From Otis tarda (lineage: Eukaryota; Chordata; Aves; Otidiformes; Otididae): a stretch of DNA of 64,000 nucleotides. Positions 23,650 to 52,762 of the stretch are shown piece by piece. The notes beneath the pieces are model-generated. The model had not been told where the DNA came from. It searched no databases and saw nothing but the letters and a program-made list of their open reading frames with translations. The position numbers and the translations under genes were made by a program. Positions within the stretch are counted from its first letter, which is position 1, and every line of letters starts with the position of its first letter. The DNA is taken from contig CM048555.1 of assembly GCA_026413225.1 (NCBI GenBank), positions 81,413,785 to 81,477,784 of the forward strand. Direction: 5' to 3'.

Positions 23650-23654
23650 TCTCT

Positions 23655-24110: not shown

Positions 24111-24116
24111 GCAGCG

Positions 24117-28298: not shown

Positions 28299-28599
28299 AA
28301 AGTGATAAAAGAAGATCACGTGGGGCGCATCCCCGCCTTTGCTATTTGTGGTTCTCAACAGCCAAGCAGGACCAAGCGCGCGCTTCTCTTTTCCAAGTTC
28401 AAAATGACGTGCCTTTGGTTCTCCTGCTGGGTTTGGCCCATCTTGCTTCCAGTTTGTTTGACGCCTCTCTCTTCCCCCATCCCTCTGTCCTCGCTTTCCC
28501 GCTCCGTCCCCCGCGATAACGCTCCGCTCGAGCCTCTCCGAGCTGCCGCCGCTGCTCTTCTGAGCCCCCCGGGAGAGAAATAAATTGTGCAGAAACAAA

Positions 28600-28860: not shown

Positions 28861-29199
28861 AAAATCTCCCAGAAGGATGCTGGCGAGCGTAACTTATCTG
28901 TGAGATCTCCTATTGCTGTGATTGTACCGGAAAGTGTCCTAAATTAAACACTTCCACCCTTCAGCGGTCACCTAAAATGTCACCTCAGCGTTAAAGGCTT
29001 CGCAGACGGTGTCGTTGGGGTATTCCCCGCAGCGGCCCAGCCTGTGCTGGGCGAGGTCTCCCGCGTTGGGCACCGTGCGAGGGCTTCTGTCGAGGATCGC
29101 AATAATGGCTTGCACGTGGCTATCGGTTAAAGGACAGCTTTCCCTCCTCGCAAAATTGATCTTGGCTTTGGGTTTAGCCGGCTCCGGCCCCGGCTGCGA

Positions 29200-29285
29200 G
29201 TTTGTTCAGTTATCTAATTTTAATGATCAAGTTTCCATTTCTTCTGTGAAAGTAATTTATATTTCAGAGGCTTTGCAGAGGGAGA
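29200..29285. promoter_or_regulatory. Short AT-rich candidate element
   Basis: GTTATCTAATTTTAATGATC and GAAAGTAATTTATATTTCAG: several TAAT cores in 85 bp of unique sequence. Confidence 0.25.
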
Positions 29286-29764
29286 GGAAAGAGGGAATGT
29301 GCGAACAGCCAGTGATGCGGGGGAACGTCTGAGCGGCCTTCGGTCCTCCTGGATCTGCCCCTGATACGAGATGGCTAGAAAATTAATTCAGATCCTGATT
29401 TTTTGGAAGAGTCTGGGGGATCATCGGTGTTTTAACCCCCAGGTGATGTGGACCGCACAGAGCATATCTGCGTCAACTTGAGTCACGGGGTTGGTTTGCA
29501 GCGTAGGTGCCCTGCAAACTCCCCAAGGTCAATAGGAAGCTCCACCAGCATGGAGCTGGTTATACTTTAATTTCTCCTTGACCTCTTTGTTTGAGTGGAA
29601 ATGCATCATGGAGCTATTACGTGGAGGTGGTGACCTGGGTTCAGCCCTGCCGTTGGCTCCCGATGCGAGTAATGTGCTCGGATAAATGTGATGGTGTCAG
29701 ATGGTGACACTTCCATCGGGGAGGCTCTTTGAAGCTTATCAACCTGAAGGACTGGGCCTGCTGA

Positions 29765-30090
29765 GGAGCAATCTCAATTTATTATTCATGGCCAGGTAAA
29801 ACAATACCGTGAATGACTGCAGAAGTCTTGCATCCGGTCGGACGCACGATTCTGCGCTGCCGCTTTTCGGAACTGAAGTTCAACGCTGGGTTAATTGCCT
29901 TTGGTCTGTAGTTATCTCTGGAACATCCTATCAATGTTATATGGTCAATAAATAAACTCGGAAGAAAATTTAAGACATCTGTAGTGACAAAAATATTGGA
30001 TATGAAATCATAGCAAAATCTGCTTGGCAAAAGAACGCCGTTAAAGCAAGATTGGTTTTCATAAACGACTTCACGGCGTGTTTTGAAACG
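29765..30090. promoter_or_regulatory. Candidate conserved non-coding element
   Basis: Contains CTCAATTTATTATTCATGGC, CTATCAATGTTATATGGTCA and ATAAATAAACTCGG. It lies in repeat-free sequence and is clearly AT-richer than its flanks. Confidence 0.28.
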
Positions 30091-33000: not shown

Positions 33001-33679
33001 GGTTTCATCAGCTTGCTCTTGTTGGGATTCTCTAGTGTCTGATAGAGCTGAGCTTTTCTGTTGTGTGGTCTTGTCTGTGACCATCTGCTTTGAGTCAACC
33101 TGGAGGGTGATTGCCCCAAGGAGTTGTGGAGTCTCTGTCTCTGCAGATACCTAAACCCAAACTGGTGATGTCCTGAGCAAACAGCTCCAGCTGCCTTGAG
33201 CAGGGACAAAATGATCTTCAGGGGTCCCTGGAGCCCTGGATACTCTGTGTTTACGACCGTGAGGTCTCTACCTGTGAGTTTGTTTTTGTGATTGACCCTT
33301 AAAAGTATTAAATTGGATGAAGAATAACCTCCTAAGCCTCATTTTCTTGCGGAACCCATCCGTAAAGGAAGGAGTCGGTAAGGTAGGAGAGAAAAGCGGA
33401 ATGGTTTCTTCAAAGCATCCACATTTTGTGTTGTCAGCAGGAGAGTGAATCGTGGGGTCGTCACCGGCCGGGGTCGAGGGACGAGGGGAAGAGCCCGGGG
33501 ATGCGCAAGCCGCCGACGCATCAGGCCCTGAGTCATGGAGGGGTTTTGTTGACTTGAGCAAGACCAGAGTTGTAGCCAAAGGCGTTTTGATGTTGCGCAG
33601 ACATTCACGTAAGGATATCAATGTTTTCTGACTGTCCGGTGTCCCTGCCAGCTAAATCCGATCGCCCCCCGCTCCAGTG

Positions 33680-34080
33680 CTTTTTCTCTTTGTAAATGCA
33701 GTTCGATAATGAAATAGAAACACATGGGGTTTTTTCCCAAATGCCACGTTAATTTAAAAAAGGCCTTTTTCATTAGACGTTATATACACACGGGCTACAG
33801 ATTACAAACGCAGAAAATTAAATTGTAAACTCCACGGCGAGGCCTTGGGGGGGAGTAACGAGAGACGCGCGCCCTCCCCTCTCCTCTCCCTGCCTCCGCG
33901 AGGACGCGCGCGTGGAAGCGGGCTGGGGAGGGCTCCCTCCCTTCAGACTCCGTAACCCGCAAAGCTTGGGGCAGATCCTTATCGGCTTAAATTATCCTCA
34001 TAACTCCAGGCTCGCTCCGTTTCCCGGAGTGAAATTACTTTTGTGCATGGATTTGAGATTAATTAGGGATTTTACCTCTT
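33680..34080. promoter_or_regulatory. Pair of AT-rich islands around a CpG-rich core
   Basis: 33700-33830 has CCACGTTAATTTAAAAAAGG, TTTTCATTAGACG and GAAAATTAAATTGTAAAC. 33840-33930 is CpG-rich (GAGACGCGCGCCC). 33985-34075 has TTAAATTATCCTCATAACTC and GAGATTAATTAGGGATT. No repeat similarity. Confidence 0.25.
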
Positions 34081-34560
34081 TTTTTTTTTCTTTGCTGCTG
34101 TTGTTTCCAAGTACGTTATTACAAAAAAAAAAAAAAAAATCAGATTCATCCCGTTTCTGATCCTAGATCTTAATTAATATTAATTATTGCAGTAAGTCTG
34201 TCTCCACTGGATCCTGTCCGTGGCTGAAGTCCATGACTGCGGCTGTGGCAGCAGGTCCAGGTAGGGCAGCATCCTTCTCTCTGAAGCCGGCGGGGAGCTG
34301 CGTGCGGTTCCTCTCCCGTTACATGTGGAGTGCACGCACTCTGTACTCCGCCCTTGTCCTTTTTTTTTTTTTTTTTAAATTCTTCTGCTGAAATCACTCC
34401 ATGGCCTTCACTCCGTGATTTTTCCTCGCGGTTATAGCTTCTTACGCTGTCTCTCCATCCTGAACCTTTATTTTTTCGTTTTTGTGATGCCCCTTGGCGA
34501 GAAGGATGCTGAATTACCGGTATAGTTTGCCTGGGATATATAGAATATGAAATAATAATG

Positions 34561-34610
34561 GAATGGTTTGGGTTGGAAGGGCCTTTAAAGGTCATCTAGT
34601 CCAACCCCCA
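34561..34610 (-). mobile_element. CR1 3' tail, antisense
   Basis: GAATGGTTTGGGTTGGAAGG, then GCCTTTAAAGGTCATCTAGT and CCAACCCCCA: the reverse complement of the CR1 terminus. Confidence 0.93.
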
Positions 34611-34732
34611 AATATAATTTTATATATAAAATTATATTATAATATAGAATAGGTAATGACACATAATTATATTATATTATGTTTAATTTACTGTAATGAT
34701 ATATAGTATACAATATAATCTTATATCCAGTC
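34611..34732. repeat. AT-rich low-complexity tract
   Basis: About 120 bp of TATATA/ATTATATTATA-type sequence with self-complementary segments (TTTTATATATAAAA), abutting the CR1 remnant. Confidence 0.9.
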
Positions 34733-37186
34733 TAATCCCTTCCAAAGCGAAACGTGACCCAGGCAATCGTGTTGCCTGCGCGTTCTACCCGCGCGTTTCC
34801 CCCTCCGCTCCTCCCGGCGCCTTCTGAACCCGGCGCAAGAGTTCGCTGAAATTCCACGCGGGGTGGAGGGTTATTAAATTACGACAAGTTTCGTGGCAAT
34901 AAGATAAGAAGGGAAGTGCAGCAAGCGTTCTCCCTGGAGAGGGGCCGCGCCGAGAGCCCGCGCTTCGTTACACCCAGAGAATCCGTCGGGACGGGGCTTT
35001 ATAGATGGGATACGGTTCAAGCAGGGTTGGCCCATCCTTGTATCGAGGTTGGTCAGTCACAAGACATAAATTTATATAAAGCCACGCTTGCTTAAGTTGG
35101 TGCTCGCCGAAACGCTTATGTAGGACTTAGGATGCGATCTTTTTTACGGGCCCCTGGCTGACTCTGCAGATGACTTGACCCTTAAGTCCCGCGTGGTCCA
35201 ATTATTTTTTTTTTTCCAAAGGAGCTGCTGGTGTACAGCATCTCTGAACCCATTTCTGGGTTTATTTGCTCATCTTTATTCCCAGGGACGTTTCAGAGCT
35301 TAGCTTGCCCACAACAGCATCATCCCTACGCGCGGTAACGACTGCGCTGCAATATTTCTCGCGGCTTCGCTCTACTCCGCAACTCCATCGCAGCCGCTTC
35401 GCCCACGCCCTGTCCTTACCCCTGAAGGGTTTTGCAGTGGGAGCGCAGATACCTCCACAAAGTCTGGATAAAATGATTTTGGTTTTATTTTTTTCCCCGT
35501 TTAGTTATTTTCTGTATCCCTCCAGGGTGAGAACGCTGTGTTGCCCTGCGCCGAGCAGCTGTGACCGCGAGGTCGCTTCAGGTGAGGAGGAGAAGGAGAA
35601 CTTCTCCTGGAGCCCTTCTTCTGAGCTCCATCCCAGGGGCAGGATGAACCCACGGCACAATATTTAACATAGCTCACATCCGCGGTGCGAGAGGAGGAGA
35701 ATACGGAATGCCAGAGGTTCTCCGGCTGCTAGGAGCAGCTTTGTTTTCCCTCTCGCACATCACGACGTCTTTTCCCTTCTGCTTTAGGCATTAGATGAAG
35801 CCTTCGACAGGCAGATGATTAATAACACATATGATTTCCATCTCCGCTGGCGTTTCTTTCTAAACCTTCTCCATCTACAAGGATTATTATTTTTTTTTCT
35901 TTTCCTTCCTACTAAACTCAGTAGTCCTGTAGATCAGTCGGACAATCGACTCTTTTACAAAATCTGCTTGCTTTCGAGTGGAGCCGGGGTTGTCTGGAGG
36001 GTTGGGTGAGGGTGGCGGTGGGCAGAGGTCTTCCTCGTCTATCGGTGGAGCACGGCGATACGCGGGAGGTCACGGACCCGCAGACTAAATAAGTGATGAG
36101 ACGTCATGAAAAATTTGTATCTGAGCACAAGGCAACTTCGGCACATGCCATGAGCTTGCTTGGCTTTTATTTATTTTTAATTTTTTTTCTTTCTTTTTTG
36201 AATTCACTGTCTTAATTTATTTATGCTTCTGGCTCGGGAGACCGGGGGTTTTCTGGGCCGTTCAGAAAACAAGGCCTTTTTAGAGAAAAGAGTATCAGGC
36301 ATGGCCGGTGGTGCAGAGAGGAGAATCTCGAGGTGAGAGGAAGAAAGGTGGGAGAAGGCATTAAGGCAGGAATGAAAACTGAGGCTCGGAGAGGCTCATT
36401 AGCAGCAGCACAGAAATAACAATTTCTTTGCAGAGTTTTGCCGTGGCGGGACGGATTCGGGGGCGCAAGAAGCGCTCTGCACCCAACTTCTCTTCTCCTG
36501 GCGTTGTACGTCGGGTTGTACGTTGGCTCTGCCGCAGGTGAGGGTGAGTCGTGTTGGAGATGGATCCCGCTCTCCGCGTGCGATTTACGGAGAACTCTGC
36601 GGGGAGAGAGGGCGACGGCAGGCGCCGGGCTGGTTCTCCGCACCGACGCAGTTCACCAAAGGGTGAGAGCAATCCTGCTGAGTGGAAACTGTAGTGTCGC
36701 CGGCAATTGGAAATGAAACCCCGCACGCGATTGCCTCTGGGGATGAACGAGTAATTCTATCCCGTACGGATCGAGAGATGGGAAGAGGTTGGGTGGAGAG
36801 ACAGCCAGCCAGCCTCTTCCTTCTGACTGTACATTTTCAGGTTGAGAGGCCTCTCTGCCTTCTCTGTCGCAACGTGCTTCCATCCCGTTCTTTCCTTCTG
36901 TCCAAATTTATTGATATTCACAAATTGCCCTTGGTAGGGTCACTCAGGCATCCGCTGGCTTTGGTGAACGCCCCGCTGGTGATTTATTTCCTTCCCATAA
37001 TAACGCTGTCGGCATTCCTTCCCTTTCCTTCCCCAGCCCCCTTTTCCAGTCACCGCTCGGTGCTTTACCTGCGTGGTACCTTCTGCCGTGGGTACAACCG
37101 GTGTGGCTGCAGGTGGAAGTTTCTCCTGGAAATAACCATCTCCTGGAGGATTGGCTGGAGGATAGCCTGAGGACATCAACTGATGA
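34733..37186. other. Unique intronic sequence
   Basis: No exon recognised. 34780-34990 is CpG-rich. 35050-35095 has GACATAAATTTATATAAAGC. T-rich runs lie at about 35202-35215 and 36170-36200. Confidence 0.35.
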
Positions 37187-37296
37187 GGCTCTGAGCAACC
37201 TGATCTGGTTGGAGATGTCCCTGCTCCTGGCAGGGGGGTTGGACTGGATGACCTTTGAAGGTCCCTTCCAACCCAAACCATTCTATGATTCTATGA
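37187..37296 (+). mobile_element. CR1 LINE 3' end, well preserved
   Basis: CTCTGAGCAACCTGATCTGG, TTGGAGATGTCCCTGCTCCT, GGACTGGATGACCTTTGAAG and a complete ACCATTCTATGATTCTATGA terminus. Confidence 0.97.
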
Positions 37297-37726
37297 ACTT
37301 GGTCTGCTGGGGACAGCACACAAACCCAGTTAAATTATTTTCGTATTGATCAGACCTTCTCTGCCTAAGTACCCAGCTGCAGAATTTCTTTCCCTCTGGA
37401 CCCAAAGGTTTGTGATTCTCAGGAAGTATTAAAATACTGTGTCCACGCACAACGTGAGCCTTCGCTGGCAAACCTCGGGATCTGGCAGTGGGAAACCTTG
37501 TGCCGGTATTTGCTCGGGAAACAAGCTGCCTCGCTGCCATCACCCTCTTCATGGTGCCTCGGACATGTCTGTCCTTGGAATGATGTATGGCTCTTGCAAA
37601 GTTCTTCCTGTTGGGGAAGAAGTAGAGATTTTCAGTCTTAATTTTTGGGGAAGAAAAGTCTTTTAAATCCCTGATATAAATGATTATGAGATACATGACA
37701 TGTATACATGAGATACATCACATGGG
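37297..37726. other. Unique sequence between two CR1 copies
   Basis: Nothing recognised beyond a short ATGAGATACATGACATGTAT/ATGAGATACATCACATG near-duplication at 37685-37725. Confidence 0.35.
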
Positions 37727-38168
37727 TCCGGGCAATCCCAGGCAGAAATCCAGGCTGGGCAGAGAATGGATGGAGAGCAGCCCTGAGGAGAAGGACTTGG
37801 GGGTGCTGGTGGGTGAGAAGCTCAACATGAGCCGGCAATGTGCGCTCATAGCCCAGAAAGCCAACGGCATCCTGGGCTGCATCCCCGGCAGCAGGTCGAG
37901 GGAGGGGATTCTGCCCCTCTGCTCCGCTCTGGTGAGACCCCCCTGCAGCGCTGCGTCCAGCTCTGGAGCCCCCAACATCGGAAGGACGTGGAGCTGTTGG
38001 AGAGGGTCCAGAGGAGGCCACGCAGATGCTGAGAGGGCTGGAGCAGCTCTGCTGTGAGGCCAGGCTGAGAGAGCTGGGGCTGTTCAGCCTGGAGAAGAGG
38101 AGGCTCTGGGGAGAGCTGAGAGCGGCTCCCAGTGCCCAAAGGGGGCTTGAATGGAGGACAAAGCATCT
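37727..38168 (+). mobile_element. CR1 fragment covering the end of ORF2, 3'-truncated
   Basis: GGCAATCCCAGGCAGAAATC through AGAATGGATGGAGAGCAGCC, GAAGCTCAACATGAGCCGGC, GATTCTGCCCCTCTGCTCCG and GGAGAAGAGGAGGCTCTGGG. Translation gives CR1 reverse-transcriptase C-terminal peptides (EEKDLGVLVGEKLNMS, then after a frame change LRELGLFSLEKRRL). The ORF is frameshifted and the usual 3' end is missing, so it is inactive. Confidence 0.95.
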
Positions 38169-39350
38169 CAAGAACCATCTGCTGCCCTTCCAGCACTGTC
38201 TCCTGGGCACTGGAAGGACTGGGATTGCTCTTAGCTTGTGATACCATGTCAATAGATGGGAAGGGACAGTATTACTGCCACCAAAAGTTCCTCTTCTCTG
38301 GGCAGTGACCTTCAGAATTGGGGTTGAGATCGCAAAATACGATGGGGCTTCCGAGTCTGGATTTTGTCGTCTGAATAACGTGGAGAGAGTGGCTTGGACT
38401 GGCAGATGGAAAACGTGTGCAAGACTCATGATTCTTCGATGCCTTTGCCCTTTGCCATGGATTTTGCCGTGCACCATCTCGGCTCCCTGCTCTGCAGAGC
38501 AGCTTCCACTCTGGCTGTAACATTAGTCTTGCTTTTTTATTTCTTTAATTTTTTTTTTTTTTTTTTTTAGCTAACAATGACCTCAGCTGTTTGTTTAAGG
38601 AGTTCATAACCCCGCAAAAAAAATTTTACAGCAACCAAAAGGAAGTTTGCAAGAAGCCCTTTGGTTGGGAGCCTCTGGCATTGATCTGCTGGGCTTCTGC
38701 TTTATGTTCCTATCAAACAATAATAAAAAGAAAGAAGAAAGTAAACAGTGCGGTGTAAATAAAGACAAATCCATGGCGGTTTAGCCTTCCTCAAGCACAG
38801 GAAAGGGCGAGCAGACGGCTCGGCCCGGCTGCCTGCTCCCCGCCCGCCGGCCTGGGCGGGCGACGGGATCGCGCGGCGGAAAGAAGTGAAGGAGGCGGCG
38901 AAATGGCGGAGGAAACGCACGTACTACGGGTGAACCGTGGCGTCGGAGAAGCCTTGAGAAAAAGAAAGGCTTTCAATCGCCTCGTGTAGTGCCAGCGCCC
39001 AGCTGAGGCAGCCCCCGCGTTTCGGGCTGAAATTGCGCAGAAAAAGAGATGCTCGGCTTCAAAGCCAGGCCGCTGAGGCTGGCCTTAAAGCTGAGCCGGG
39101 CTTAGTTTAAGCTTGAGTGCACCAAGGTTGTGTGAGATGGCCGGATTCTTGAGGGTTTTACTGGTTTTGCACCACCTACGGCTACGCAGAAATAGTGGGG
39201 AGTTACTGGGCCGGCAGACCTGGAACCAAAACTCTGGTGCCGAAATCTGGACGACAGCTCCCCGAGCAGATGCGGGTTCGATATCTGAGATTTCATCTGC
39301 TCTGGCAAATCCCCCTCTTCTGAAGTTACTTCTACCTGAAATTTCCCTGT
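38169..39350. other. Unique intronic sequence
   Basis: No exon recognised. A T-run of about 20 lies at about 38550-38570, and a CpG-rich patch at 38800-38960 (CCCGCCCGCCGGCCTGGGCG). Confidence 0.35.
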
Positions 39351-39354
39351 TGTT

Positions 39355-39592
39355 TTTGTATTATTATTTTTTTTATTTTATTTTTTTTTCCCTCTTTTTT
39401 TTTGTTTTTCTATTTTCCTTTTCTTTTATTTTTTCCTTTTTTTGTTTTTCTTTCTTCTTTCTATTTTCCTTTTTCTTTTTCTTTTTTTCTTTTTTTCTTT
39501 TTTTCCTTTTTTCTTCTTTCTTTTTTACTTTTTTTCTTTTTTTCTTTTCCTTTTCTTTTATCCCTTTTCCTTTTTTTCTTTTTCTCCCCATT
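39355..39592 (+). repeat. T/C-rich low-complexity tract
   Basis: About 235 bp of TTTTTCTTTT-like sequence, the pyrimidine counterpart of the purine tract at 23.7 kb. It produces spurious Phe-rich frames. Confidence 0.93.
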
Positions 39593-42559
39593 TACTTCAA
39601 ACTCACCAGAGCAGTTTTATCCTGGGGCATTTAAAATCCCCCAAAGTCTTAAAAAAAAAAAAAGAGCTGCTTCTGAGATGTTATTGAGCATTGGGACTGG
39701 CCGCTGCGGGACGGGGGAAGCATCGGGTTTGGGCGGCGCATTGTGCAACCTCTCCTTAAGCAGGACAGCACCTTTTGGGGTCCCACCTCAGCCCCGGAGA
39801 ACCCCTCTCACCCCAAGCCCTTCCTCCCGGTATAGCGTGTTTAACCCCAAAAAAAGCCTTTCTGCCATTTCCCCCAGCCCTTCGCAAAGCCTCGCCTCCC
39901 CATCGCCGCCCCGGCCGCGGGTGTCGGATTCCCCGCTCCGCCGGGACCTCGCGGCCGTCCGCTAGCGCCCTTTTTTCCCCCCCAAATTGCTTTATAGCAG
40001 GGCGATAACTCGGCGCGCACGTCGTAAACCATCCCTTCCCGGGATTTCTGCCCTGGATGTCAGCGCAAAGGTGATTTCGCGGCAGCGGTGCCTCTCCTTT
40101 CCCTCCTGACCCGCCTCTTGGCATCCGAAATCTGCCTTTGTTTCTACCTTTCCAAGGCTGTGACAATAAGCGCGAGGCCATCCAGAGGTTAGTGTGACAC
40201 CGCGTAAGGAAAAACCTCTGAAGACTTTTTTTTACTTTTTTGTTTTATCTACAACAAACAGCCATAAATCCCGCTGCGTCGCCCCGTGCCCAGGGCTGCC
40301 CGGCTCCAGCGCAGGCCCGGCGGATGCGGTTGCGGGATGAAATGCTGCTTCGGCTGGGACCCCTCCCGATGCTCAGCCTCTTCCATCGCATCCTATTTAG
40401 TTACCAAAAAGCATATAATGCAAAATTTTGGGGGGTTAATTAATTGGAAGCTGGGCTTTGGTCACCCTGGGTGTTTTCAGGAGGTTTTTCAGGAGGCCCA
40501 AAGCAAGTGTTACACGCGTTCCACACCAGAACATTGTATTTTGATTTTTTTTTTTCCCCTTACACATTAATTTCCTACAAATTTAAAGTTCTCAAAATGC
40601 CTTGCACCCACCGAAAGTGGAACAGGTTCAGATAAACTCAGTGTTTTCTCAAAAGAAGAGGGCTGCTGAAGAGCGAGGGGTGTCTGGCCAGGCTTCCAGA
40701 CAAACCTGACGTGAGTGTGGATTTTAACTCCTTCCTTTTAACCCTTCCTGGAGGGATTTTTTGGGGCTCATGTGAGAGTCTGGGGTCTAGAGCATGCAGG
40801 CCCCCAAAAAGCATCAGCTCGGCCCTCGCCGTCAGCCGGAGCCCAGCGATTTCGCAGCCTTGGCCTGGGAAATCTGCTCTGTCCTGTAGATGCTGAGAGG
40901 AGTGATGAGCCCTCCCGCGGACACCCTCCCATGGTGTCCGCTCAACCTCAAAAGAGACTTTTTTACAGCATGGATGGAAAATAATAGGTGAAATAATGGA
41001 CTTTTTAATCTTAATCTTTTCTGTGGTAATCTATTAGTCTCTAGAAGCTGAAGAACTACAATTATATTTTTCCTGAAGTGAGGCATTACCGAATTCACTC
41101 ATTTCTAACCTTCTGAAAAGTTATTTTATTTCTGTGTTGCTTTCAGCCAAATGTTTCCTGCCAGCCTTGTCTCCACAGCTGGTTTGAATATCCATTTGCG
41201 TGTGCGTCTGCCTCTCTGTAGAATACGCTCAACGCCTCTAAACGGCCCTCACTGGTTTCCAAACGCTGTTTCAGACTGGAAATAGATATCCTGCGGTCTT
41301 ATAAAAATAGTTTCTAATCAGCCACCCAAATTGGTGGGTTATGTCACGGGACAAATTACTTTTGCAGGTGACGCTGCTAGATAGAGGGATGGCACCTTTG
41401 AGGGGACATCTCTGGATGTCGATGTGTTTGCAAGGGTGAGGAAACCTTCTCAGTGGAAGCAGCTGAGACCATCTCCTCCATCTTCTCGTCTCTGCCTTTG
41501 CGTCCCCTGCCTTGGGCAGAGATCCCAGTGTCACCAGTTTCTTTGGCAGTGATGCCGGATCCATCTTCTTTGGAGAGGTTCCTGCGAGCTGTGCTGGAGT
41601 AAGTCTTCTCCTGGGAGGCTGGTGTAGGAACCGGGGTGACGAGTAGCCACGAGGAGAGCAAATGGGAGAAGAAAATGGCTGTTTTTGCCCAAAATATCTC
41701 AGCGCCGCAGCATGAGCAGGTTTTGCATCCCCCCTCCTTTGCTGTCTGCTGAGGCGAGGACGTTTCTCCGGGTGAGGACCAAACCCGTGACAAGTACATC
41801 ATGTCTTGGTGCCCCCAAATCCCCATCTGCTGTTGTGTTCCTGAAACCATCCGAGATGCCTTCCACTCTGCAAAGTTTTTCTTTTTATTTTAGATTTGTT
41901 CCCCGTGTGCCACCCCATCGAGGCGGAGGCTGCCTGGTGACTTTCACCCTGACTGCCTTGAAGAACTTCACGCCGCCTCCAAACGATGCTGCTCACCTCC
42001 TCAGCCCCTAATGAACGCTGAAGAGGTTAATTAGGAAAATTAGGAAAGCGAGACTTTTCCAGCCTCGCAAGCAGAAAAAGGCCATTTATCCGGCAAAGCC
42101 GGCGCTGGAGCCGTGTGGTCCCCGCTCCCAGCCCGGACCACCCGCGGGTACCGCAGCCGCCCTCCCGCTTCCCACAGGTGTTTGGATCCTTGAAGCGAGC
42201 AAGCCCGATCTTTTTTGTTTCCTATATAAAAAAAAAAAAAAAAAAAAACAAAAAACCCAGAGAAGTAGTTCCAGGTCTGAGCCTGCCTCCTGCAAAGCCA
42301 GGCAAGGGCACCGCGGCGTGTTTTCTGTTTACAGAAGAGCTTAAAGAAATAAGCATCAGTTACATAGGGGGAAAAATGAGAACGCAGTCAAATTGGACCC
42401 CAGGGCAAGGCTGGCTGAGAACAATAGATCTGCTAAACAAAACCTCCGGGGCTAAGGAGGAAGTCATCATGAAAAGCAAGGGATATATTAGTTTAGTTTT
42501 GAGTGTTTTTTTTTTTTAAAAAAAAAAACAACAAAACAAAAAGGAAGGTATTTCAAGCA
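39593..42559. other. Unique intronic sequence
   Basis: No exon recognised. CpG-rich around 39890-39970. A-runs at about 39650-39663 and 42228-42260; a T-run followed by an A-run at about 42508-42540 forms a potential hairpin. Confidence 0.35.
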
Positions 42560-43180
42560 CTTGAACTTGAGCGTCTCTATTTCGCCCTCCCCTCAAGCGG
42601 CCGAGTGACCTCGGCGGCAGGAATCGCCGCCGCCAGCGCGGATGCTGAGCTCGCTGCCTTTCCCTCCGTGTCAGCTGGGAGATGGACGAGGCGGCCGCCT
42701 CTGCCTCCCGTCACGCGCGCGTCTTGAAAATAAATGGGAGGACGGCGATGGGCTGCAGCGCTTTGCGTGAAGAGGGCAGCCAGAGTTTAGGAGGCCGTGG
42801 CCTGAGAGAGGTTTCCTGCTGGGTGAAGGGACCGCCGGACTTGTTATCGCTCCTTGTTGCTCTTTTTGCTTCTCCTTGGGTCTTTTGAGCAGGAAGCCGG
42901 GCAAGCCCTCCACGGGTTGTCCCTGCTCACGACGGGCACCCGGAGCCGCTCGCTCCTGTGGGAGCTGCCGCAGAGCCCGTACACAACTCGTTGCCCGCGC
43001 AGGAGCAGAGGACGGCACAGGAGCTGCTCTGTCTCCCTCCCGTTCCCTCAAACAGCTGCTTCCCCATCTCCTGCCCGTGCCGGCGCACGCCGGGCTGGTT
43101 CCGTTCCCGGCGGCTCTCGGCGTTTCCATCGCTCTGCTCTCCCTGCCCGAGGACGACGGGAGGAAGCGCGCCGATAATGC
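42560..43180. promoter_or_regulatory. Intronic CpG-island-like block
   Basis: Dense CpGs (GCGGCCGAGTGACCTCGGCG, ATCGCCGCCGCCAGCGCG, GGACGACGGGAGGAAGCGCG). It directly precedes the DR5 cluster at 43257-43359. It may be part of a regulatory unit or an alternative promoter; no TATA box or convincing first exon is visible. Confidence 0.35.
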
Positions 43181-43256
43181 TCATTAAATTTATAGCCGCG
43201 TTGCGCTGTAACGTTTAATCAAGGTTACGTGCCTGTGTGCTGCCGCGCGGGGTACA

Positions 43257-43273
43257 AGTTCAATGCAAGGTGA
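43257..43273 (+). promoter_or_regulatory. DR5 retinoic-acid-response-element-like motif a
   Basis: AGTTCA, 5-nt spacer ATGCA, AGGTGA; both half-sites fit RGKTSA. Confidence 0.5.
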
Positions 43274-43295
43274 ATCTTGTCTGAGATAATCTGAA

Positions 43296-43312
43296 AGTTC
43301 ATTCGGAGGTGA
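43296..43312 (+). promoter_or_regulatory. DR5 retinoic-acid-response-element-like motif b
   Basis: AGTTCA, 5-nt spacer TTCGG, AGGTGA; both half-sites fit RGKTSA. It starts 39 bp after motif a, with the same half-sites but an unrelated spacer. Confidence 0.5.
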
Positions 43313-43342
43313 AGGCAGCAGCAGCTTCTCGGAGACCGGCTG

Positions 43343-43359
43343 GGGTTAGCGAGAGGTCA
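43343..43359 (+). promoter_or_regulatory. DR5-like motif c with a consensus AGGTCA half-site
   Basis: GGGTTA, 5-nt spacer GCGAG, AGGTCA. The upstream half has one mismatch (T at position 5). The downstream half overlaps its own inverted copy (AGGTCACCT). Confidence 0.38.
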
Positions 43360-43439
43360 CCTCTTTTTATTATTTTTTTTTTTAATCCCCTTTTTTTAAT
43401 GCGTAAACAAAAGAAAAAAAAATGCAACTTTGTGGAGGA

Positions 43440-43900
43440 CTTGGCATCAGCTGAGCAATAGGAAAAAGAATTGCGGCCCACGGCGGGGTTTGGTACCCGC
43501 CGAGGGTCAGGCCGTGGGGCTCGGGGAGGGCGACGCCGGTGCCTTTGGGGATGGCGGGAGCGGTTTAATTCAAATTTTGTGGTTTCTCCTGCCGTGGAAA
43601 GGAAAGACCCTTGTTGCTGCGCCCAGAAAGACGCTGCTGGCTGGCCTGGCCCTGCTCCCCGCTGCCGGAGGGACCCCCTCAACGCGGAAAGTGCCGCGCA
43701 GTGCCCCTCCCCGGAGATGTTCGGATTTTCCGTGGCGTTTCATAACGTTTTCTTTGGAGGAGCTGATTTTGAAGCGTGGGTCAGGCCGGATGAGTCAGGT
43801 AAACGTGTGAGGCTGCACGCACCCGGACTGCAGCAGCGGAGGAGATGTTTCTGCGTACGAGGGGTACCCGCGCACGCGGTGCCATCATCTCCCAACCACG
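43440..43900. other. Second intronic CpG-rich block
   Basis: GC-rich with many CpGs (CGGGGAGGGCGACGCCGG, GCACGCACCCGGACTG). A frame of about 230 codons across it (43471-44169) shows no domain and is best explained by scarce stop codons. Confidence 0.4.
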
Positions 43901-46900
43901 GAGCGAGGAGTCTTTTCCCGTTAGCAAATCCAGCTTCTCCTCCCCGTAATGCCTTCAAAAATCCTTCTGAGAAGAATTATCTACAAGCTGAGCACTTCCC
44001 AAGCATTATCTCCCAAATTCAACCCCCCGTAACCTCAGGTGCTGACCCCAGGCTCCATCCTTGCCGGGCAGAGCGATGGACGCACCTCCCGGCCATGCCC
44101 ACCAAAGATCCGAGGCGGAGAGGCTGCCGGGGGGATGTTTCTAAAGGAGACATCTTGCTTGGGGAATGAATCCCCCTTTGTGACGGCTAAATGGAAACGC
44201 AAAGTGTTATTCAATAGCGGTCCCTGGAGAACGGTCTTCCGAGGCTCTTTCATTTCTTTTGGCCGCAGCCCAGTATTGTCTCTTTGTCTCCCGCAGATTG
44301 GAGGATCTGGAGGGAAGGAAGCCGGTCGTCTTCGCTGGGCAGAAAGCGCCATGCAAACTTGTGAACCTGCGTGGAGAATTTGATGAGTCTAAATAATTAT
44401 GTTTTATGAGTGCAAATTGGCTAATAAATCCAGCAGGGCAGAGTTTCCTTTTGTTCTTTTGGCCATTCATAAAATCCCCTGGCTGGGCGATTATCTCTAA
44501 AACCAACGGAGTTTATTCCAAAACGTTGAAATCCTTGTGATTTTGTACCAGATAACTTTCATGCCTTGGGTTTTTTTTGTTTTCAAGCAGCGTTGCACGG
44601 TGCTTTGCAATGGTCGGAGGAACGTGGGGTTTCCCTAGAATTCAGTTTAGCCTTCGCTGTGGGCAAGCCTCCAGTGAATGACTAAAGCCATGATCCTGCA
44701 CCATCAAAGTCAGGAGGAGCGTGAACGAAGCCGGTAGGGACTTTCCAACCGTCTTCGAGACCGTCACCGTGACACGACGTCCCCCGCCCTTCTCTCTTGG
44801 GCTGCTTTGCATCGCTTCTCCTGAAGCCCGAGAACTTTTCGTGGCTCCTTCATGTGGTTTCGTGTCGCAGGCTGGGAGGAGAAGGTGGATTCCTGAAAGC
44901 CATATTTAACCCAAAAGGGAGTTTTTTGGCCATGAGTGCGGACGTGACCTACAATCAGAAACACAATATTTTTTCAGGTGAAATTGTGTTTGTTATGATT
45001 TTAACGAGATCCTTGGGATAACTACCTTCTGAAACAGTTGAAAAGTCAACCTGTGTAATTACAGCGTTACTTGGAAGCAGGTGGAAAGCCAGAGGTTTTC
45101 CTCCTGATAAGCGATGAACATTTGCAGATGGAAAACCAGGAGACCTTTCTGTGCACACAGGGCAGGCCAAAAGCTTTCTGGAAATCTGATGTAAGAAATA
45201 CAAAAACCTATAAACAGGCAATAATACGGATCTGAAAACTGTCCGGACTGGACAGGTCAGGGCTCTGTTGGTCTCAAGCCTTTCTCCGTCACGTGCTTTC
45301 CCATCTGCCATAAATCTTTCCAGATTCTTCTCCTGTTTTCCAAGAACTGTTTCCCTTTCGCAGATGTAAGTAAAGAGGGGGAAAAAAGGAAAGATAAAAT
45401 TGCTGCCTTAACTTGAAATGTGAGATGAGGGCCTTGGAAATAGGTTCTCTTCCCTCCAGTGTGAGGGTTTAGGAGAAAGGACAGCCCGAGGTGGGACATC
45501 TGTCCAGGAGACCTGGAGGAGTCACTTGAGCGTAGGGTTATTGCGCCTTACCGAGAGGTCCAAGCAGTCTACATTAATTCCTAGAAGTCCATCTCTCTCT
45601 TACAGGCAGATCTAGTAAGCACCTAAAGTAAGGTTGACCTTCCCTGAGCTCCATGTGCGTTGATCCCTCGGCTTGCGCATCACGTTGGCTTGTGCAACAT
45701 CAGGTTACTGTGGGTGCTGTCCACCCCCTCACGCCGAGTATGCTCAGTACGCAGAGAAAATCTCCGTTTCCAGTGGAATCGGTAACGAATCTGCTCCTGC
45801 TTTCGTTTAGGCCATGATTGTACCCTCCGTGTCTTTCACAAGGAAAGGAACAAACATCATGTTCCAATCCCTGGTGCCTTTTCTTCTGAGTAATGCTATT
45901 GTCCAAACCTGCGCTCCCCATGGGTTAGAGGATTTCTTTCTCTTTCAGTATTGCTTTCCCACGAGGCATAATTGAAACCTCACCAAAATAAATTATTTTG
46001 AATGTACTTGTCTGTGGCTGCTGATGTTGGAACCTCTTCGAGCTTTTGTGCTCAGTTACAATTACCCGCTGGCTGGCGGCAGGGGCTGCTCAACCAGTGG
46101 TGGGGACGGCTTGTGGGCAAGCTTGGGCATGGGCAAACTGGGAATTGGCACTGGCTTGAGTTCAGTAGTTTCTTGTGATTTTATGGAGGTACCCAGTAGG
46201 ACTGGGTCTTACCTGGGTGTTTTCTGGTCCTGCTGGAAGCGGCTTGTCCGGGTGGGTTTAGGTGGGACCGTGGTGGGACTTCCTCTTCCAAGTGCTGCCT
46301 TTCTCTCAGCCTCTTCTTGTCACCTTTATCAAAGGAGCTGTGGTGTTAAATCAGCAAAATGAGCTTTTTAAAGAAAAGATCTCGGTAGGTTTGTAAGCTA
46401 ACTGTGATTTCTTGCAAACTGAAGCACGACTGGTTTGTAGAAGGTGTCGGGTCAAAGGCTGTTCATTGTGGGTGCTGTCTGCAACAAAGACTAGGGAAGA
46501 GGAGCATCAGGCTTAAAAGTTATAAGGATAAAAAGGGATAATAGAGCTTTTTAGAGCTGGGTTCAGCTTGTTCCTGAAAATATTCCCTTCTTCTACCCCT
46601 AGAAAGCAAGAGTGGTTGCTCATGAGCCTGACCCTCAGCAGGTTTCAGGGCAGGAGCGCCCCAAACCCTACTTAGTGAACGCTTCTCGGCACCCTGCCAT
46701 CCAGGGGACGCGATGCTCGTCGTGAAAGCCTGACTGTAACCCTGTGGCATAGCTGTCCCTTCTGTGTCCATCTGAACCTCCTCCACTGCAAGGAACATCT
46801 CACGCACCGGCTGTTGGCACCGCCTAGACCCAGGCCAGGCTCCTCCGGACGCCTGACTGTCTCCTGCTTTAAGACGCAGCAAGTTAACTCTAATTCCCCT

Positions 46901-47456
46901 AGCTCAGTTGGAGGTGAGAAATCCAGGATAATTGAGTTTAAATTTGTTGAAACAGGTTGCAAGATTTGCCAGCTAATGGTCCTGAGCCGTCTTTCCCTTT
47001 TCATCCTTCGGTGTGCGTGCACGCGTGCTGATGGTGTTTGTTTTGGGTTTTTCTAATAGCGGTTGGCGCTTTGTAGAAGGCGTGTCAGGCAGTTACACCT
47101 TGCAGCCTGGCTCCGGCCAGCTCCAACGTGTGGTCCCTGAGCACCACGGAAAGTCAACAACTTCTAGTAGAGAAGAGTCTTTCTCCTACTGTACATGTCC
47201 TTGGAGGAAAAAGAACTACAAGGATGATTAAAAGCTGCAGGGATGTAAGAATTCCCTAATTTGGGCTTTTAGCAAAGGTAAGGTTTAGTTCTTCATTAGA
47301 TGTTTCCCATCAGCCCTCACAATTCTGGTGGATCTACTGATACTCTGATGATGTTGGCAGAGGAAAGTCCTTTTCAAGCCATCTTGATGCCCTCTCTTGT
47401 CACTGGGAGTAAACATGGCAGTGGAGAAGAGGGGAAGGGATGTTTGGTTCTGGGAC
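43901..47456. other. Unique intronic sequence
   Basis: No exon or repeat recognised. 44380-44520 is AT-rich with GAGTCTAAATAATTATGTTT, TTGGCTAATAAATCC and GGCCATTCATAAAATCC and is a weak candidate conserved element. Confidence 0.35.
44380..44520. promoter_or_regulatory. AT-rich candidate conserved element
   Basis: TAATTA at about 44393-44398, with GCTAATAAATCC and CATTCATAAAATCC nearby; non-repetitive. Composition-based call. Confidence 0.25.
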
Positions 47457-47850
47457 AGAATCACAGAACCATAGAACAGCCCAGCTTTGAAGGGACCTTG
47501 AAAGATCATCTGGTCCAACCTTTTGTGGCAAAGGAAGCGTAGATGAGGTGATCTAGCAACCTGTCCAATCGCATCTGGAAAACCTCCAGCAATGGAGATT
47601 CTTCCACATCCACGGAGAAGTTCTTCCAGTGAACGGTAGTTCTTACTGTAAGAAATTTATTTCTTATGTTGAGATGAAACCTCTCCTGGTGCAACTTGGA
47701 GACATTACCCTCTGTCTTCTCCATGTGGCTGCTTGTGAAATGGGAGCCTTCATCCTCCTTCTAGCCACCCTTTAAGTACTGGAACACTGTGATGAGGTTC
47801 CCCTTGAGGCTTTGCTTCTCCAGGCAGAAGAGACCTAGACCTTGAGAGTC
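47457..47850 (-). mobile_element. CR1 LINE 3' region, antisense, older subfamily
   Basis: AGAATCACAGAACCATAGAA, then AGGGACCTTGAAAGATCATC, TGGTCCAACCTTTTGTGGC, CTTACTGTAAGAAATTTATT, GAGATGAAACCTCTCCTGGT and GCTTCTCCAGGCAGAAGAGA: CR1 read in reverse from the 3' terminus. Confidence 0.93.
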
Positions 47851-49989
47851 TTCAGGATGAGGTAGTTTCTCCTTTCGCCGTCCGGTTACTGCGTAGCCAT
47901 GAGCCTCTTGCACCAGATTGCCTCTGGCGATGACTCAGTTGGGATTTCACCCCCAAAAAGTCAGGATATTAAAATGCAGAAGGGCTGGGGCATGGGGGGA
48001 GACCTGAACACAAGTGCAGAGATGCTGATGACTCTTTTGACTTTAGCAGGACCAAAATGTACGTCTCTTATGCAGCTGAATCCCTTTGGCAAGGACTGAA
48101 AAGACCAAAAGGTTTCCTTGCCAGGGCGCGGAAAGACGTGGTTTCCATTTGTGGCCGGACTGCAGGCTGCCCTCCTGCCTTGGAGCAGCTCTGCTTTTGG
48201 GAGAGTTGCTCCTTGCTTTTAATTCAGACAACTTTTGCTTCCCGTTTCAGTGGATGGCCCATCGTGTCCAGTGTCGTGGCAGTTCTGTCCTGGGAAGCTC
48301 TTCTCTCTGCTGAAAGGGGATGGTCACACTCCTCTTCTAGTAGACTTGTCCGTGAGCCCGGAGCGTTTGGTGTGTCTCAAGTTTCCTGCAGGCCAAAGCA
48401 TTTGAATGCAAATCCCTGTTCGTGGGTGCTCAGAGTGGCACTGCATCAGTTCGGAAGAGGGAAAAGAGACAAAAAGAAGAGTCAGATGTTGCGTGAAGTT
48501 GGGGAATTCAGGAATTTTCATCTGTCCTGCAATAACACTTGACCATCATCTCTTAGGCTTGAGGAGGACAGGAGAGGTCCTGGGGACCGAGAGGACCCCG
48601 TATCTAGCGTTATCCCTGCAACATCGTCCTGACTTCTCTGAGACAGGAAAAGGGGGTTTTGCGTGGGTTTATTTTCATCTCAGAAAACATGAGGCTCCCT
48701 TTCCTGCCATCTTCTTTATCTCTAGCCACCGCGCGTCACCTCCCAGGTTGCGCAGAGCCCGCTGTGACGCTGCTGCAAGCGTGCAAACGCTGGCGCTTTC
48801 TCTGCTCTTGTCCTGGGGGGGCCAGCAGAGCTTGCAAACTGGTTTGGATTCACATTACGTTATTTCTGGCTTGGCTGAAAGAATTTCATCCAGATTCGTG
48901 TCGTCTCGTGTCAGACAGAACGTGCTGTCCCGCCTCGCTTTGCATCTGGAGGGAGAAGCTTGCAAAGTCGTCGCCATGGCCCCGTTTCCTTTGCCACCAG
49001 CGTGCGATTGGGTTGCAACCATCCTTTCCCTGGACTTGACATGCCTTTGCTTTGAAAAAAAAAATAACATTTTGAAGAGTTTGAGATGGTGGTATTGCAA
49101 GGGGAGCGAGAAGGAAGTGTTTTTTGAGGTGGAACTGAGGGAAATGGGGCGAAAGTGCTTCTTGGCCCTTGCCAAGGGGAGCCTGGAGCAGGGCTGGGAA
49201 CTGGTTCCCAGTTTCATTCTTTCCAGGGTTGCCCTCTCTCAAATCACCATTTCGGTAAGAGTATGGGTGACCCTCTCCACTTTTGCAGCAAAGATGCTTC
49301 TCGTGCGGCGGGAGGCTGCAGGTTCACGGCCCCGCTCTGCGCACGCGGCACGTCTGCGGCCTTCTCAGCTCATTCCGCTTTCATATCGCTGCGGTAAAAG
49401 CGCCTCTTCCCCCCCCCCACCTCCTCTTTTCCTTTCCCCTCAGTGTATGTGCTGCCAAGTTTGATTTATAGCCTTGAAAAGGAGATGCTGGTTTGAAGAA
49501 TTAATAGTATTTGCATATTTTATTTGGAATCTCCCCCGGCAGGCCCGCCGCAGCCCAGCGTCGCTGCGCAAGCAGGTTTTTCTTTTTTTTTTTTTTTTTT
49601 CCCTCTGTCGTTCAGATTTAGCAGCAGAGGTGAAAAGTTTAAACAGTAAAACCAATAAAACCACATTTATGTGACAGATAAATCGTTTCGAGACGGCTTG
49701 CCCTGAGCCGCCAGGCTTCCTCCTGCAAGACCTCTCTCCTCTGGAGCGCGACCCGCGGCAGAGCCCCGCGAGCGCCGGCGATGCCCTGCGCCGCGCGGCA
49801 GCCGAGGCCAAAGGTGCCGGCCCCGGCTATCCGCAGACCTGCCTCGCCGACAAGATGGATGTGGACAAACAGCTGTAAAATACACAAGCTATCCGTCACT
49901 GTCGTGAGCTGGCCGAGGGGAGTCCGGCTCTCCCTGCGCTCGGGGAAGGTCCAGCCTGGAATGGGGCCGCATTTAGATCGGGACTTCCT
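47851..49989. other. Unique intronic sequence
   Basis: No exon with homology recognised. It contains an unusually long non-repetitive open frame (48406-49464, see findings), a T-run at about 49579-49599 and a CpG-rich patch at 49735-49860. Confidence 0.35.
49440..49550. promoter_or_regulatory. Candidate element with a perfect octamer motif
   Basis: TTTGATTTATAGCC, GAAGAATTAATAG and the octamer ATTTGCAT at 49509-49516 (POU-factor site) in AT-rich unique sequence. Confidence 0.3.
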
Positions 49990-50615
49990 TAGAATCGTAG
50001 AATCTTTAAGGTTGGAAAAGATCCTTCAGATCATAAAGTCCAACCGTTAACCCAACACTGCCAAGTCCACCGCTGATCCGTGTCCCTAAGCGCCACGTCT
50101 ACGTGTCTTTTAAATCCCTCCAGGGATGGTGACTCCACCACTTGTTCCAGTGCTTGACCACTCTTTTGATCATTCCAAGATCATGAAGTCCAACCGTCAA
50201 CGCAACACCACCATGCCCACTAAACCATGTCCTGAAGCGCCACGTCTACACGTTCTTTGGACCCCTCCAGGGATGGTGACTCCACCACTGCCCTGGGCAG
50301 CCTGTTCCAGTGCATGGTCACTCTGTCAGTAAAGATTTGTTTCCTAATATCCAACCTATTTCTTCCTTATGTCCAATCTAAACCTATCCTTTCAGTTTAA
50401 AACCATTGCCCCTTGTCCTGTCACTACACGAGAAGTGAAAAGCCTCTCTCCATCTTTCTTGTAAGCACCAGGAAGGGCACAATAAGTTCTCCCCAGAGCC
50501 TCCTCTTCTCCAGGCTGAGCAGCCCCAGCTCTCTCAGCCTGGCCTCACAGCAGAGCTGCTCCAGCCCTCTCAGCATCTGCGTGGCCTCCTCTGGACCCTC
50601 TCCAACAGGTCCGTG
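49990..50615 (-). mobile_element. CR1 LINE 3' region, antisense, with internal tandem duplication
   Basis: Runs in reverse from the terminus (AGAATCGTAGAATCTTTAAG) through the CCTCCAGGGATGGTGACTCC segment, TTCCTAATATCCAACCTA and AACCATTGCCCCTTGTCCTG, to CTCTTCTCCAGGCTGAGCAG and TGGCCTCCTCTGGACCCTCT. The segment from about 50028 recurs from about 50178, a duplication offset by 150 bp and about 140 bp long. Confidence 0.95.
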
Positions 50616-52649
50616 TTAAAACAGGTCCATAGAATAACTTACCCTGACCATCCATTCAGGCCGATGCCAGCACAAGGAGGATGTGGTGGTGCACCTTCCA
50701 TGCCGGCAAAGCCTGGCAGCCGCACGTGGGAAAGCTGCGTTCCTTCAGCCTGGTTGAGTTGAACCGAGCAGTGGTGGAGTGGACGCAAAGCTGTGGGACA
50801 GGGATGGCCGTCGGGCCAAGGGCTGTGTACCAAACCTCTGCTGTCCCTCCAGACTCCTGCTTGTAACACATCCCCACACTTCTTATTTTATCTTCTCCTA
50901 ATCCACTTCTAATCTTTGCTGTTTCATTTTCGTTCTTTTTTTCCCTTTCTCCTGGGCTTTATTTCCACTACCTGGCCCCTCGATGGGCCGGCCGTGCGTT
51001 TTCTCTGGCGATAACTCGTGCTGCTCTGTTCGTGGTTTGCCAGAGGCACGTTCAGCCCTCCCCGGGGCCACCAGCAAGAGGACTCGGGTGCGCTGGGGGG
51101 ATCCGATTTAGCCTGTACAACCACGCAGCTTCCCGCAGCAGCCGGCGACCCCGACAGAAGAGTTCTGGCCCCGCTGTGCCGTATGAAAAGAGCCTGTGAA
51201 ATCATAGTTAAGGTTGTCTCTTGAAGGTGCCCTTTGGGGAAAAAAAAAACAAAACCTCCTGCCGATGATGTTCAACTCGGGTTTGTAGTTAACACAATGG
51301 CCCCGCCGTACAAAGCCGCGCGGGACCGCGGGCTGGAAAAGCCCTCTTAGGTCCCGGCTAATCCGTCCCCCCCGCCAGCCCGGGGGATTGTTCCCAACGG
51401 CTTGTTTTCTTTGCCCTGACCTACATAGTCAAAAAGAATCTTGTTGCACATTTTTGTTTTGAACCTTGAGGTCTCGGAGGAGCCAAATCCCCTTCTTGGC
51501 GGGGCGGGATGTGTTGTTAAACAGTGCCGGAGTCTCCAGGAAAACCATGGAGACGCGGAGACAATGAGCCCTCTATGGTCCTCGCTTGGCCGCGGGATGG
51601 TCCTTCTTCTCCAGGCTTCGGTGGTGGGCGCCGGGACGCGCAGACGCGAGCGATGAAGACGTCCGTGCGCTTGGCAGCCCGTCCCGCAATAGAGCGGTCA
51701 CAGCAGCTTTCCAGGGCAGAAGGTTGGGGGGGAGAACTAAGCTGCTCTTAATTAACCTGTTTCAGATAATGGAGATGAAGGCCGCATCTCATCCGTCCTC
51801 AGCCGTGCTCTCGTGGGTGGGTGGAGAGGCAAGTCCTCTTAGGGGCGAGGAGATCCTTGTGTGGGAAAGATGTGGGAGCTCCTGTCTGGGTTTTAAGGGA
51901 AATAAGGATGCAGAACGTGGGGTGGAAGAAGACACGTAGGAAACCTGGGCTGTGGTTTGCTCGTCCCTCACCCAAATCACCTGGGAGGGATGGGGCACCG
52001 AAAGGGTCCTTTGTGGAGCTGGAGGGCTTCAGGTGCAAATTTTGGGGATCTGGAGCAGAGACTGTCACAGACGACTTGAGCTAATCCGCTTTTTCCTTCT
52101 CCCGCTGCCGGGGGCTGGCGGTTTCTCTTGCGAATGTCTGGAAACCACCTGGGACTCCCAGTCTGCTCCGGTAGCTGCGTTCACCCAGGATAAACCCCTG
52201 AGCTGCTGGATGGGTCCCACACCTCCCCGGGGAGCTCCCGTCATTAGAGTGGTTACAAAGCGCTCGGAAGATGTTGAGATGGAGCAAGCGCGATGAGAAA
52301 ACCTTGTGGTGTGGTTCAAACGATGCCGGGGGTTGTTTGGGGACAGAAGTCCCTGTACCGCTGATTCCCCCCAAAAATAGAGAGAGCGTCACAGGAGTGT
52401 ACCGCGGCTACGTGAATATATGTTCATAAATTAATAATGTTCTTAAATTAATAATGAAATATAAATAGCTTAATAATTAAACATTAGCAGAACGATATGA
52501 AATAAATGAATAAGACTGCAAACCATTTTTTGTGGTTAGCACCACCTGCCCAGGATCTTTGCCAGCTTTCAGATAAACCACCTGCTCGCTCGCCGGCTTT
52601 TTCCAATCTTCTCTTTGTTTTATTTTTTTCTCTCCCGTGGCTGCTGCAG
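50616..52649. other. Unique intronic sequence leading to the penultimate exon
   Basis: No further exon seen. 51300-51380 is GC-rich. 52420-52490 is AT-rich with a 17-bp near-duplication (TTCATAAATTAATAATG / TTCTTAAATTAATAATG). The last about 40 bp form the pyrimidine tract of the splice acceptor. Confidence 0.45.
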
Positions 52650-52762
52650 CTCTTGGATCTGTTCATCCAGTGGGACTGGTCGACGTATTTGGCTGACTAC
52701 GGGCAACCCACGTGCAAGTATCTGCGCGTGAACCCGACGACGGCGCTCATCCTGCTGGAGAA
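52650..52762 (+). CDS. EXOC6B: Penultimate coding exon of a Sec15-family exocyst subunit, probably EXOC6B
   Basis: The exon encodes 37 residues beginning LLDLFIQWDWSTYLADYGQP and ending ..NPTTALILLE, plus two bases of a lysine codon completed by the next exon. The acceptor is a pyrimidine-rich tract ending GCTGCTGCAG (AG at 52648-52649); the donor is GAGAA|GTGAGT at 52763. The peptide matches the conserved C-terminal part of Sec15/EXOC6 proteins (Sec15-like C-terminal domain). Sec15 is an exocyst subunit that binds Rab GTPases, including Rab11, and helps tether secretory vesicles to the plasma membrane. From memory the human protein differs here only at a few positions (for example Asn for Thr after QP). 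No coding exon was recognised upstream in the window, so the preceding intron is either very long or holds an exon I missed. Family assignment is very secure; the choice of EXOC6B over EXOC6 rests mainly on the final exon. Confidence 0.93.

Follow-up and report, generated by a model that had tools for sequence, protein, structure and literature searches.

Direct repeats of two half-sites with a spacer of five nucleotides (DR5) are the leading arrangement for RAR/RXR (PMC8608873, PMC8950952), and such elements are known from several genes that respond to retinoic acid (RA). For CYP26A1, a proximal and a ~2-kb distal RA response element (RARE) have been described (PMC7151129, PMC5247814). In the Dhrs3 enhancer two DR5s, one of them with a mismatch, lie 37 bp apart (mouse coordinates) at an RA-regulated gene, and they are listed as conserved to frog (PMC7259794). 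A third case is a DR5 near hoxb within an intron of the neighboring skap1 gene, which is conserved in nine vertebrates, bound by RAR and RA-responsive in transgenic fish, and which is thought to act on the adjacent developmental genes (PMC8608873).

The CYP26B1 enzyme clears RA from the developing limb and the fetal testis (PMC7151129, PMC11893106), and its gene has been reported to be RA-induced (PMC7151129, PMC8608873). According to a 2020 review, no consensus RAREs had been reported in the CYP26B1 promoter, and in-silico DR5s were without functional validation (PMC7151129). An amphioxus paper, citing earlier work, comments that the control of CYP26B1 by RA “seems to be indirect” (PMC5247814). 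Zebrafish RAR ChIP-seq sites and RA-induced ATAC peaks have been assigned to cyp26a1/b1 (PMC8608873), a human squamous line has RAR-gamma peaks that are associated with CYP26B1 (PMC12774775), and reporter activity was up 2.0-2.5-fold with a region near human CYP26B1 (PMC9918232). In chicken, EXOC6B and CYP26B1 are neighbors near the end of chromosome 4, at 90.1-90.3 Mb (PMC13064311). Here we describe a cluster of DR5-like motifs in Otis tarda, within a 64-kb window (the whole stretch of DNA that was analysed, C4:81413785-81477784), and consider whether it may be added, as a candidate, to the known class of DR5 RAREs at RA genes.

The DR5 cluster and its genomic setting

Three DR5-like motifs were predicted to lie on the same strand within 103 bp, and all three were found on the + strand where they had been placed. 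DR5-1 (AGTTCA-ATGCA-AGGTGA, 43257..43273), a direct repeat of the RAR/RXR type, and DR5-2 (AGTTCA-TTCGG-AGGTGA, 43296..43312), which starts 39 bp downstream of the start of DR5-1, have identical half-sites and different spacers. These two of the three sites conform to RGKTSA-N5-RGKTSA, and DR5-3 (GGGTTA-GCGAG-AGGTCA, 43343..43359) is off by one mismatch. All five + strand RGKTSA half-sites in positions 43100-43500 are part of the cluster. With the narrower classical consensus, RGKTCA-N5-RGKTCA, there is no match among the three sites and no perfect DR5 in the 64-kb window. This misfit is not unique to the cluster, because published RA-regulated DR5s depart from the consensus as well, such as GGTTCA-N5-AGGTGA, which is conserved to birds and, like the equally conserved AGGTCA-N2-AGGTGA, has AGGTGA as its 3′ half-site (PMC7259794). 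The GGGTTA half-site of DR5-3 is present in two RA-regulated DR1s (PMC7259794, Table 2).

Among the 41 CpG-rich patches listed across 164 kb, the one that contains the cluster (42451..44351, GC 0.56, CpG o/e 0.89) is the longest; with so many of them, the argument from a CpG island is weak. Two other strict RGKTSA DR5s are in the same intron, both on the + strand: AGGTCA-TTTGG-AGTTGA at 25373..25389 (15.8 bits with the matrix described below) and AGTTCA-CCAAA-GGGTGA (AGTTCACCAAAGGGTGA) at 36650..36666 (11.8 bits), the latter 6.6 kb upstream of the cluster and within a separate CpG-rich patch. Taking all DR5s with at most one mismatch, the + strand of the window has 14 of the 17 and the - strand has 3, and single half-sites are near balance (144 versus 129 by strand); the bias may be chance. 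Immediately upstream of the cluster, CDX/homeodomain-like sites had been predicted, and the letters are indeed present, as A+T-rich words that resemble such motifs (TCATTAA, TTTATAG and TTTAATC within 43181..43220; TCATTAAATTTATAG at 43181-43195 and TTTAATC at 43214), but these are common short words. TCATTAA was also called by our consensus scan of the window, and the CDX pattern of that scan did not call TTTATAG.

The host gene was expected to belong to the EXOC6B family and this was borne out. The last coding exon with its stop codon (57953..58079, + strand) has 80% identity to a human EXOC6B probe and 66% to EXOC6, a pattern opposite to that at the paralogous locus on C7 (EXOC6 91%, EXOC6B 65%), and the last two exons of the window code for the C-terminal end of a Sec15-type exocyst subunit (Pfam family Sec15_C, E=1.7e-5; its 24.7 bits are just below the curated cut-off of 28.3). 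The exon peptides had no match among solved structures. The penultimate coding exon (LLDLFIQWDWSTYLADYGQP...LLE) is at 52651..52762 (+ strand, splice sites read by eye), and the sequence before it (1..52650, + strand) is intronic and continues past the left end of the window; peptides of the preceding exon, the sole exon probed there, were not found in 1..52650. As the next upstream exon found, at C4:81394262, falls outside the window, the cluster is situated in a long EXOC6B intron, and its intronic position is as predicted. So, too, is the order of the genes: CYP26B1 follows EXOC6B in the same orientation. Its start codon, at C4:81503794, is 31.9 kb beyond the stop codon of EXOC6B, and its first two matches have 87% and 94% identity to a human probe. 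The cluster is upstream of this start codon, at a distance of 46.75 kb.

Several other features of the locus deserve mention. We expected a small EXOC6B exon ending in DLRQ codons between C4:81394292 and window position 52651, but the search of the 164 kb did not find it, nor did a joined query elsewhere; it may be hidden by a run of N in the interval. An exon of this type was found in the EXOC6 paralog on C7, with 96% identity to the probe. The last EXOC6B intron holds a (CTCCTT)n array of ~119 units (53222-53903) that has several frames open for 250-290 codons, yet is a simple repeat. Copies of a single interspersed repeat, 85-95% alike, are at 27516, 28045, 37187, 54421 and 55969, and some, with ATTCTATGATT tails, we take to be CR1-like. 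Across the 164 kb of the EXOC6B-CYP26B1 stretch a single RGKTCA-strict DR5 occurs, GGTTCACATATGGTTCA. It is on the minus strand at C4:81488477-81488493 (74693 in window numbering, which is beyond the window), in the intergenic DNA upstream of CYP26B1 and 15.3 kb from the start codon, and can be regarded as a second candidate RARE. RGKTCA DR1s or DR2s were absent across the same 164 kb.

How does the cluster compare with the described elements? The consensus scan recovered the CYP26A1 element R1 (AGTTCACCCAAAGTTCA) at C7:22048441, a discovery that is non-circular, and we took the CYP26 match beside it to be CYP26A1 because that match comes after EXOC6 and CYP26C1 and because its similarity to CYP26B1 is lower. 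Further RGKTCA-strict DR5s at C7:22049032 and C7:22049859 bring the total at the CYP26A1/C1 locus to three, and a second site is found at C7:22049889, 30 bp from that at 22049859; this placement agrees with the published proximal and ~2-kb distal CYP26A1 RAREs. Like the cluster, the CYP26A1 RAREs are DR5s that are partly clustered, are at a CYP26 gene and have AGTTCA as a 5′ half-site. The predicted likeness to CYP26A1 therefore holds for that 5′ half-site and fails on the 3′ side, as R1 has AGTTCA on both sides whereas the two strict copies of the cluster have AGGTGA as their 3′ half-site. In addition, several of the CYP26A1 elements are RGKTCA-strict and they are within ~2 kb of their gene, whereas the cluster is 46.75 kb away and inside another gene.

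The doublet formed by DR5-1 and DR5-2 resembles the Dhrs3 enhancer in having two DR5s at close range, and differs from it in gene and in half-sites; moreover, the Dhrs3 sites are in RA-regulated chromatin, whereas the cluster is a candidate from sequence (PMC7259794). With the skap1 element the cluster shares its location in the intron of a neighboring gene, although it is a sequence candidate and the skap1 element one with known conservation, RAR binding and RA response (PMC8608873). A mouse DR5 listed for Zfp638, GGTTCA-GCCAA-AGGTGA (chr6:84976840, mm10), has the same AGGTGA 3′ half-site (PMC7259794). Two exact copies of this 17-mer are in the bird genome, on C9 and C27. By mm10 gene coordinates, the mouse site is presumably inside Exoc6b; that it is the same element as ours is ruled out, as none of its 21 places in the bird genome with at most one mismatch is on C4. 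The exact 17-mer of the first mouse Dhrs3 site is absent from the bird genome and, since one is absent and the other has no copy on C4, neither 17-mer serves as a positive control. The three 17-mers of the cluster itself had no mention in open-licence PMC text, and no description of the element was present among the matches listed there, the scope being article text.

Site quality, spacing and the part of chance

An explanation that must be weighed carefully is that DR5-like words fell together by chance in a C+G-rich avian intron, were noticed because of the known RA link of CYP26B1, and are inert or unbound in vivo. We regard this as a serious possibility that nevertheless falls short of probable. 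The arithmetic of the original prediction was sound, both in that RGKTSA matches 8 of 4096 hexamers and in the expectation of ~0.5 strict DR5s per 64 kb with uniform base use (0.49 by our calculation). The window has four strict RGKTSA DR5s (25373, 36650, 43257 and 43296, all + strand); the mean was 0.68 in dinucleotide shuffles, which reached four in 2 of 100, and 0.44 in local order-2 Markov simulations, which gave at least four in 0.1% of 17,600. Of the 17,600 simulated windows, 28 contained two strict DR5s on the same strand within 103 bp (0.0016). The pair is thus unlikely, as had been claimed, but to call it “far beyond” chance is too strong because a same-type pair of any DR1-5 arose in 97 of these windows and one of any nuclear-receptor arrangement tried (DR, IR or ER, spacing 0-10) in 263 (0.015). 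Consequently, the strict doublet is rare, yet not prohibitively so once other patterns are counted. Chance is favored also by the failure of every cluster site to be a perfect RGKTCA repeat and by the 13 single-mismatch DR5s that occur in the window, because of which DR5-3 contributes less.

Against chance stands the observation that the exact doublet (AGTTCA-N5-AGGTGA, a gap of 7-37, AGTTCA-N5-AGGTGA) was found once in the genome (1.198 Gb, 116 contigs), its reversed control not at all. The scores of the sites against a matrix bear on the same question. This 12-column matrix was built from 14 distinct published DR5s (15 rows typed). The sources were Table 2 of PMC7259794, with 12 DR5 rows of which one is a duplicate, and Table 1 of PMC5247814, for its vertebrate CYP26A1 sequences; DR1 and DR2 rows and those of amphioxus, hemichordate and sea urchin were excluded. 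The published elements score 9.7-19.4 bits when each is left out in turn, and DR5-1 (15.0 bits), DR5-2 (15.0 bits) and DR5-3 (13.4 bits) are inside that range, in its lower part. They are plausible sites on the weaker side, because 10 of the 14 published elements score at least 17.5 bits. As to half-sites, the 3′ half-site is AGTTCA in 9 of the 14 and AGGTGA in one.

With the threshold set post hoc at 13.35 bits, such that the weakest member of the cluster counts, the CYP26B1 locus (163,491 bases) has 11 sites; the simulated mean was 3.42 and 11 was reached in 2 of 5,000. None of the 5,000 simulations of the 163-kb locus produced three sites scoring 13.35 bits or more within 103 bp, which argues against chance, and 12 produced two sites on the same strand, scoring 15 bits or more, within 39 bp. 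Scaled from 12 in 5,000 per 163 kb, at the composition of the locus, ~17-18 chance pairs of the quality of the cluster pair are expected genome-wide and, therefore, the place of the cluster weighs as much as its motif.

A control that uses real DNA is the spacing itself. Among direct repeats of RAR-type half-sites with spacings from DR0 to DR20, spacing 5 was the most frequent at both CYP26 loci (C4:81363785-81527784 and C7:22035001-22115000). At the CYP26B1 locus DR5 had 11 sites and the other 20 spacings 72 in total (mean 3.6, maximum 8, for DR2 and DR13), and close same-strand pairs were counted twice for DR5, once for DR1 and not at all for the remaining 19 spacings. Without the cluster, the same locus has 8 DR5 sites and is tied with DR2 and DR13. 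The 80-kb EXOC6-CYP26C1-CYP26A1 locus likewise had 11 DR5 sites, whereas the 20 other spacings together gave 67 (mean 3.35, maximum 7); DR5 and DR1 each had one close pair. The training set is partly CYP26A1 itself, and the matrix score of the bird R1 and part of the C7 count are circular because R1 is identical to a training row. The excess of spacing 5 in real DNA at both loci is nevertheless a point against a chance cluster.

Origin of the cluster and its possible targets

We also considered whether the cluster could be a by-product of some other type of sequence. No tandem array was called at the cluster, the window yielded no second copy, and the 380-bp stretch around it had only its self-match in the genome at E values up to 1, in a search that skipped simple repeats and limited scoring to the best candidates. 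By these window and genome searches the cluster is single-copy and is neither a transposon nor a tandem repeat: a transposable element is ruled out by the single copy, and a tandem duplication behind the doublet by the differing spacers and flanks and the absence of a called array. An RNA gene or tRNA-derived SINE was considered since AGTTCAATGC resembles a box B and is followed by a T-run; as the window gave neither an Rfam match at gathering score nor a tRNA, and the genome a single copy, an RNA polymerase III gene or SINE was rejected. As for a coding exon, no Pfam family was found in + frame 1, one frame of six, of 42601-43799. An ancient paralogous element at the EXOC6-CYP26C1-CYP26A1 locus was likewise rejected, nothing better than E=1.0 having been obtained after matches at the A/T-rich end of the query were set aside. 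The doublet had 0 matches in a viral contig collection.

If the cluster is an RAR/RXR element, which transcript would it serve? It could act on EXOC6B, on a non-coding RNA from the CpG-rich stretch, or on a gene of the same domain other than CYP26B1, and its position inside EXOC6B, in the longest of the CpG-rich patches, would suit such a role, as would the richness in lncRNAs reported for the chicken CYP26B1/EXOC6B interval (PMC13064311). We consider this unlikely, however, as CYP26B1 is the next CYP26 gene, is on the same strand and is the one reported to be RA-induced (PMC7151129, PMC8608873), and as the searches with Pfam, Rfam and for tRNAs described above provided no sign of another product. 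Nuclear-receptor half-sites are common to many receptors, and COUP-TF, RXR homodimers, PPAR or orphan receptors might use single half-sites here in a repressor or constitutive element that does not sense RA, for which the scarcity of AGGTGA as 3′ half-site among the published DR5s can be cited, but this seems very improbable as the spacing is exactly five in all three pairs and DR5 is the leading RAR/RXR arrangement (PMC8608873, PMC8950952).

A candidate RA switch for CYP26B1

The reading that we prefer is that the cluster would serve CYP26B1 as a distal, intronic RA-response enhancer, and we regard the prospects of its being correct as evenly balanced. The 103-bp cluster would form the receptor-binding core of this enhancer in a late EXOC6B intron, with RAR/RXR heterodimers occupying two or three of the DR5 sites. 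In the absence of RA the heterodimers would hold corepressor at the cluster and, in its presence, coactivators would be recruited and transcription of CYP26B1, 46.75 kb away, would rise. RA would thereby induce its own degrading enzyme. From the motifs and their clustering, their scores relative to published RAREs, the order and distance of the genes and the DR5 excess, all of which are established, we infer the binding of RAR/RXR, the response to RA, CYP26B1 as the target and the tissue of action.

The enhancer is favored by the triplet that no simulation produced, by the spacing-5 excess at both CYP26 loci and by the one doublet found in the genome, and also by CYP26B1 being next on the same strand and by half-sites that are known from published RA-regulated elements. 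Counted against it are the lack of any fit to RGKTCA, in contrast to the three RGKTCA-strict DR5s at the bird's own CYP26A1/C1 locus, the rarity of the AGGTGA 3′ half-site (1 of 14), the post hoc threshold, and the tie of spacings once the cluster is removed. The chance pairs expected genome-wide, a CpG-rich context that is common and the paralogous copy that was not found weigh in the same direction, as does the “indirect” RA control of CYP26B1 in the literature (PMC5247814). Of the intronic RA enhancer originally proposed, then, the setting, the spacing excess and a site quality within the published range stand, and what detracts from it is that the sites are on the weaker side and that none matches RGKTCA.

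A bolder proposal is that the cluster may be the direct RA sensor of CYP26B1 in birds, that the linkage of EXOC6B and CYP26B1 might have been kept because the introns of the former hold the switch, and that the locus-wide excess of spacing 5 might mark a set of such sensors; we offer this tentatively and think it rather unlikely in full.

If the enhancer reading is true it would matter since the 2020 review knew of no functionally validated RARE for CYP26B1 (PMC7151129). A compact candidate at a defined place makes the directness of the feedback between RA and CYP26B1 a question about an enhancer. In chicken, a selective sweep has been reported for the interval at chr4:90.10-90.30 Mb, which contains lncRNAs and gene-void stretches, so that it would be of use to have a candidate regulatory element in its vicinity (PMC13064311).
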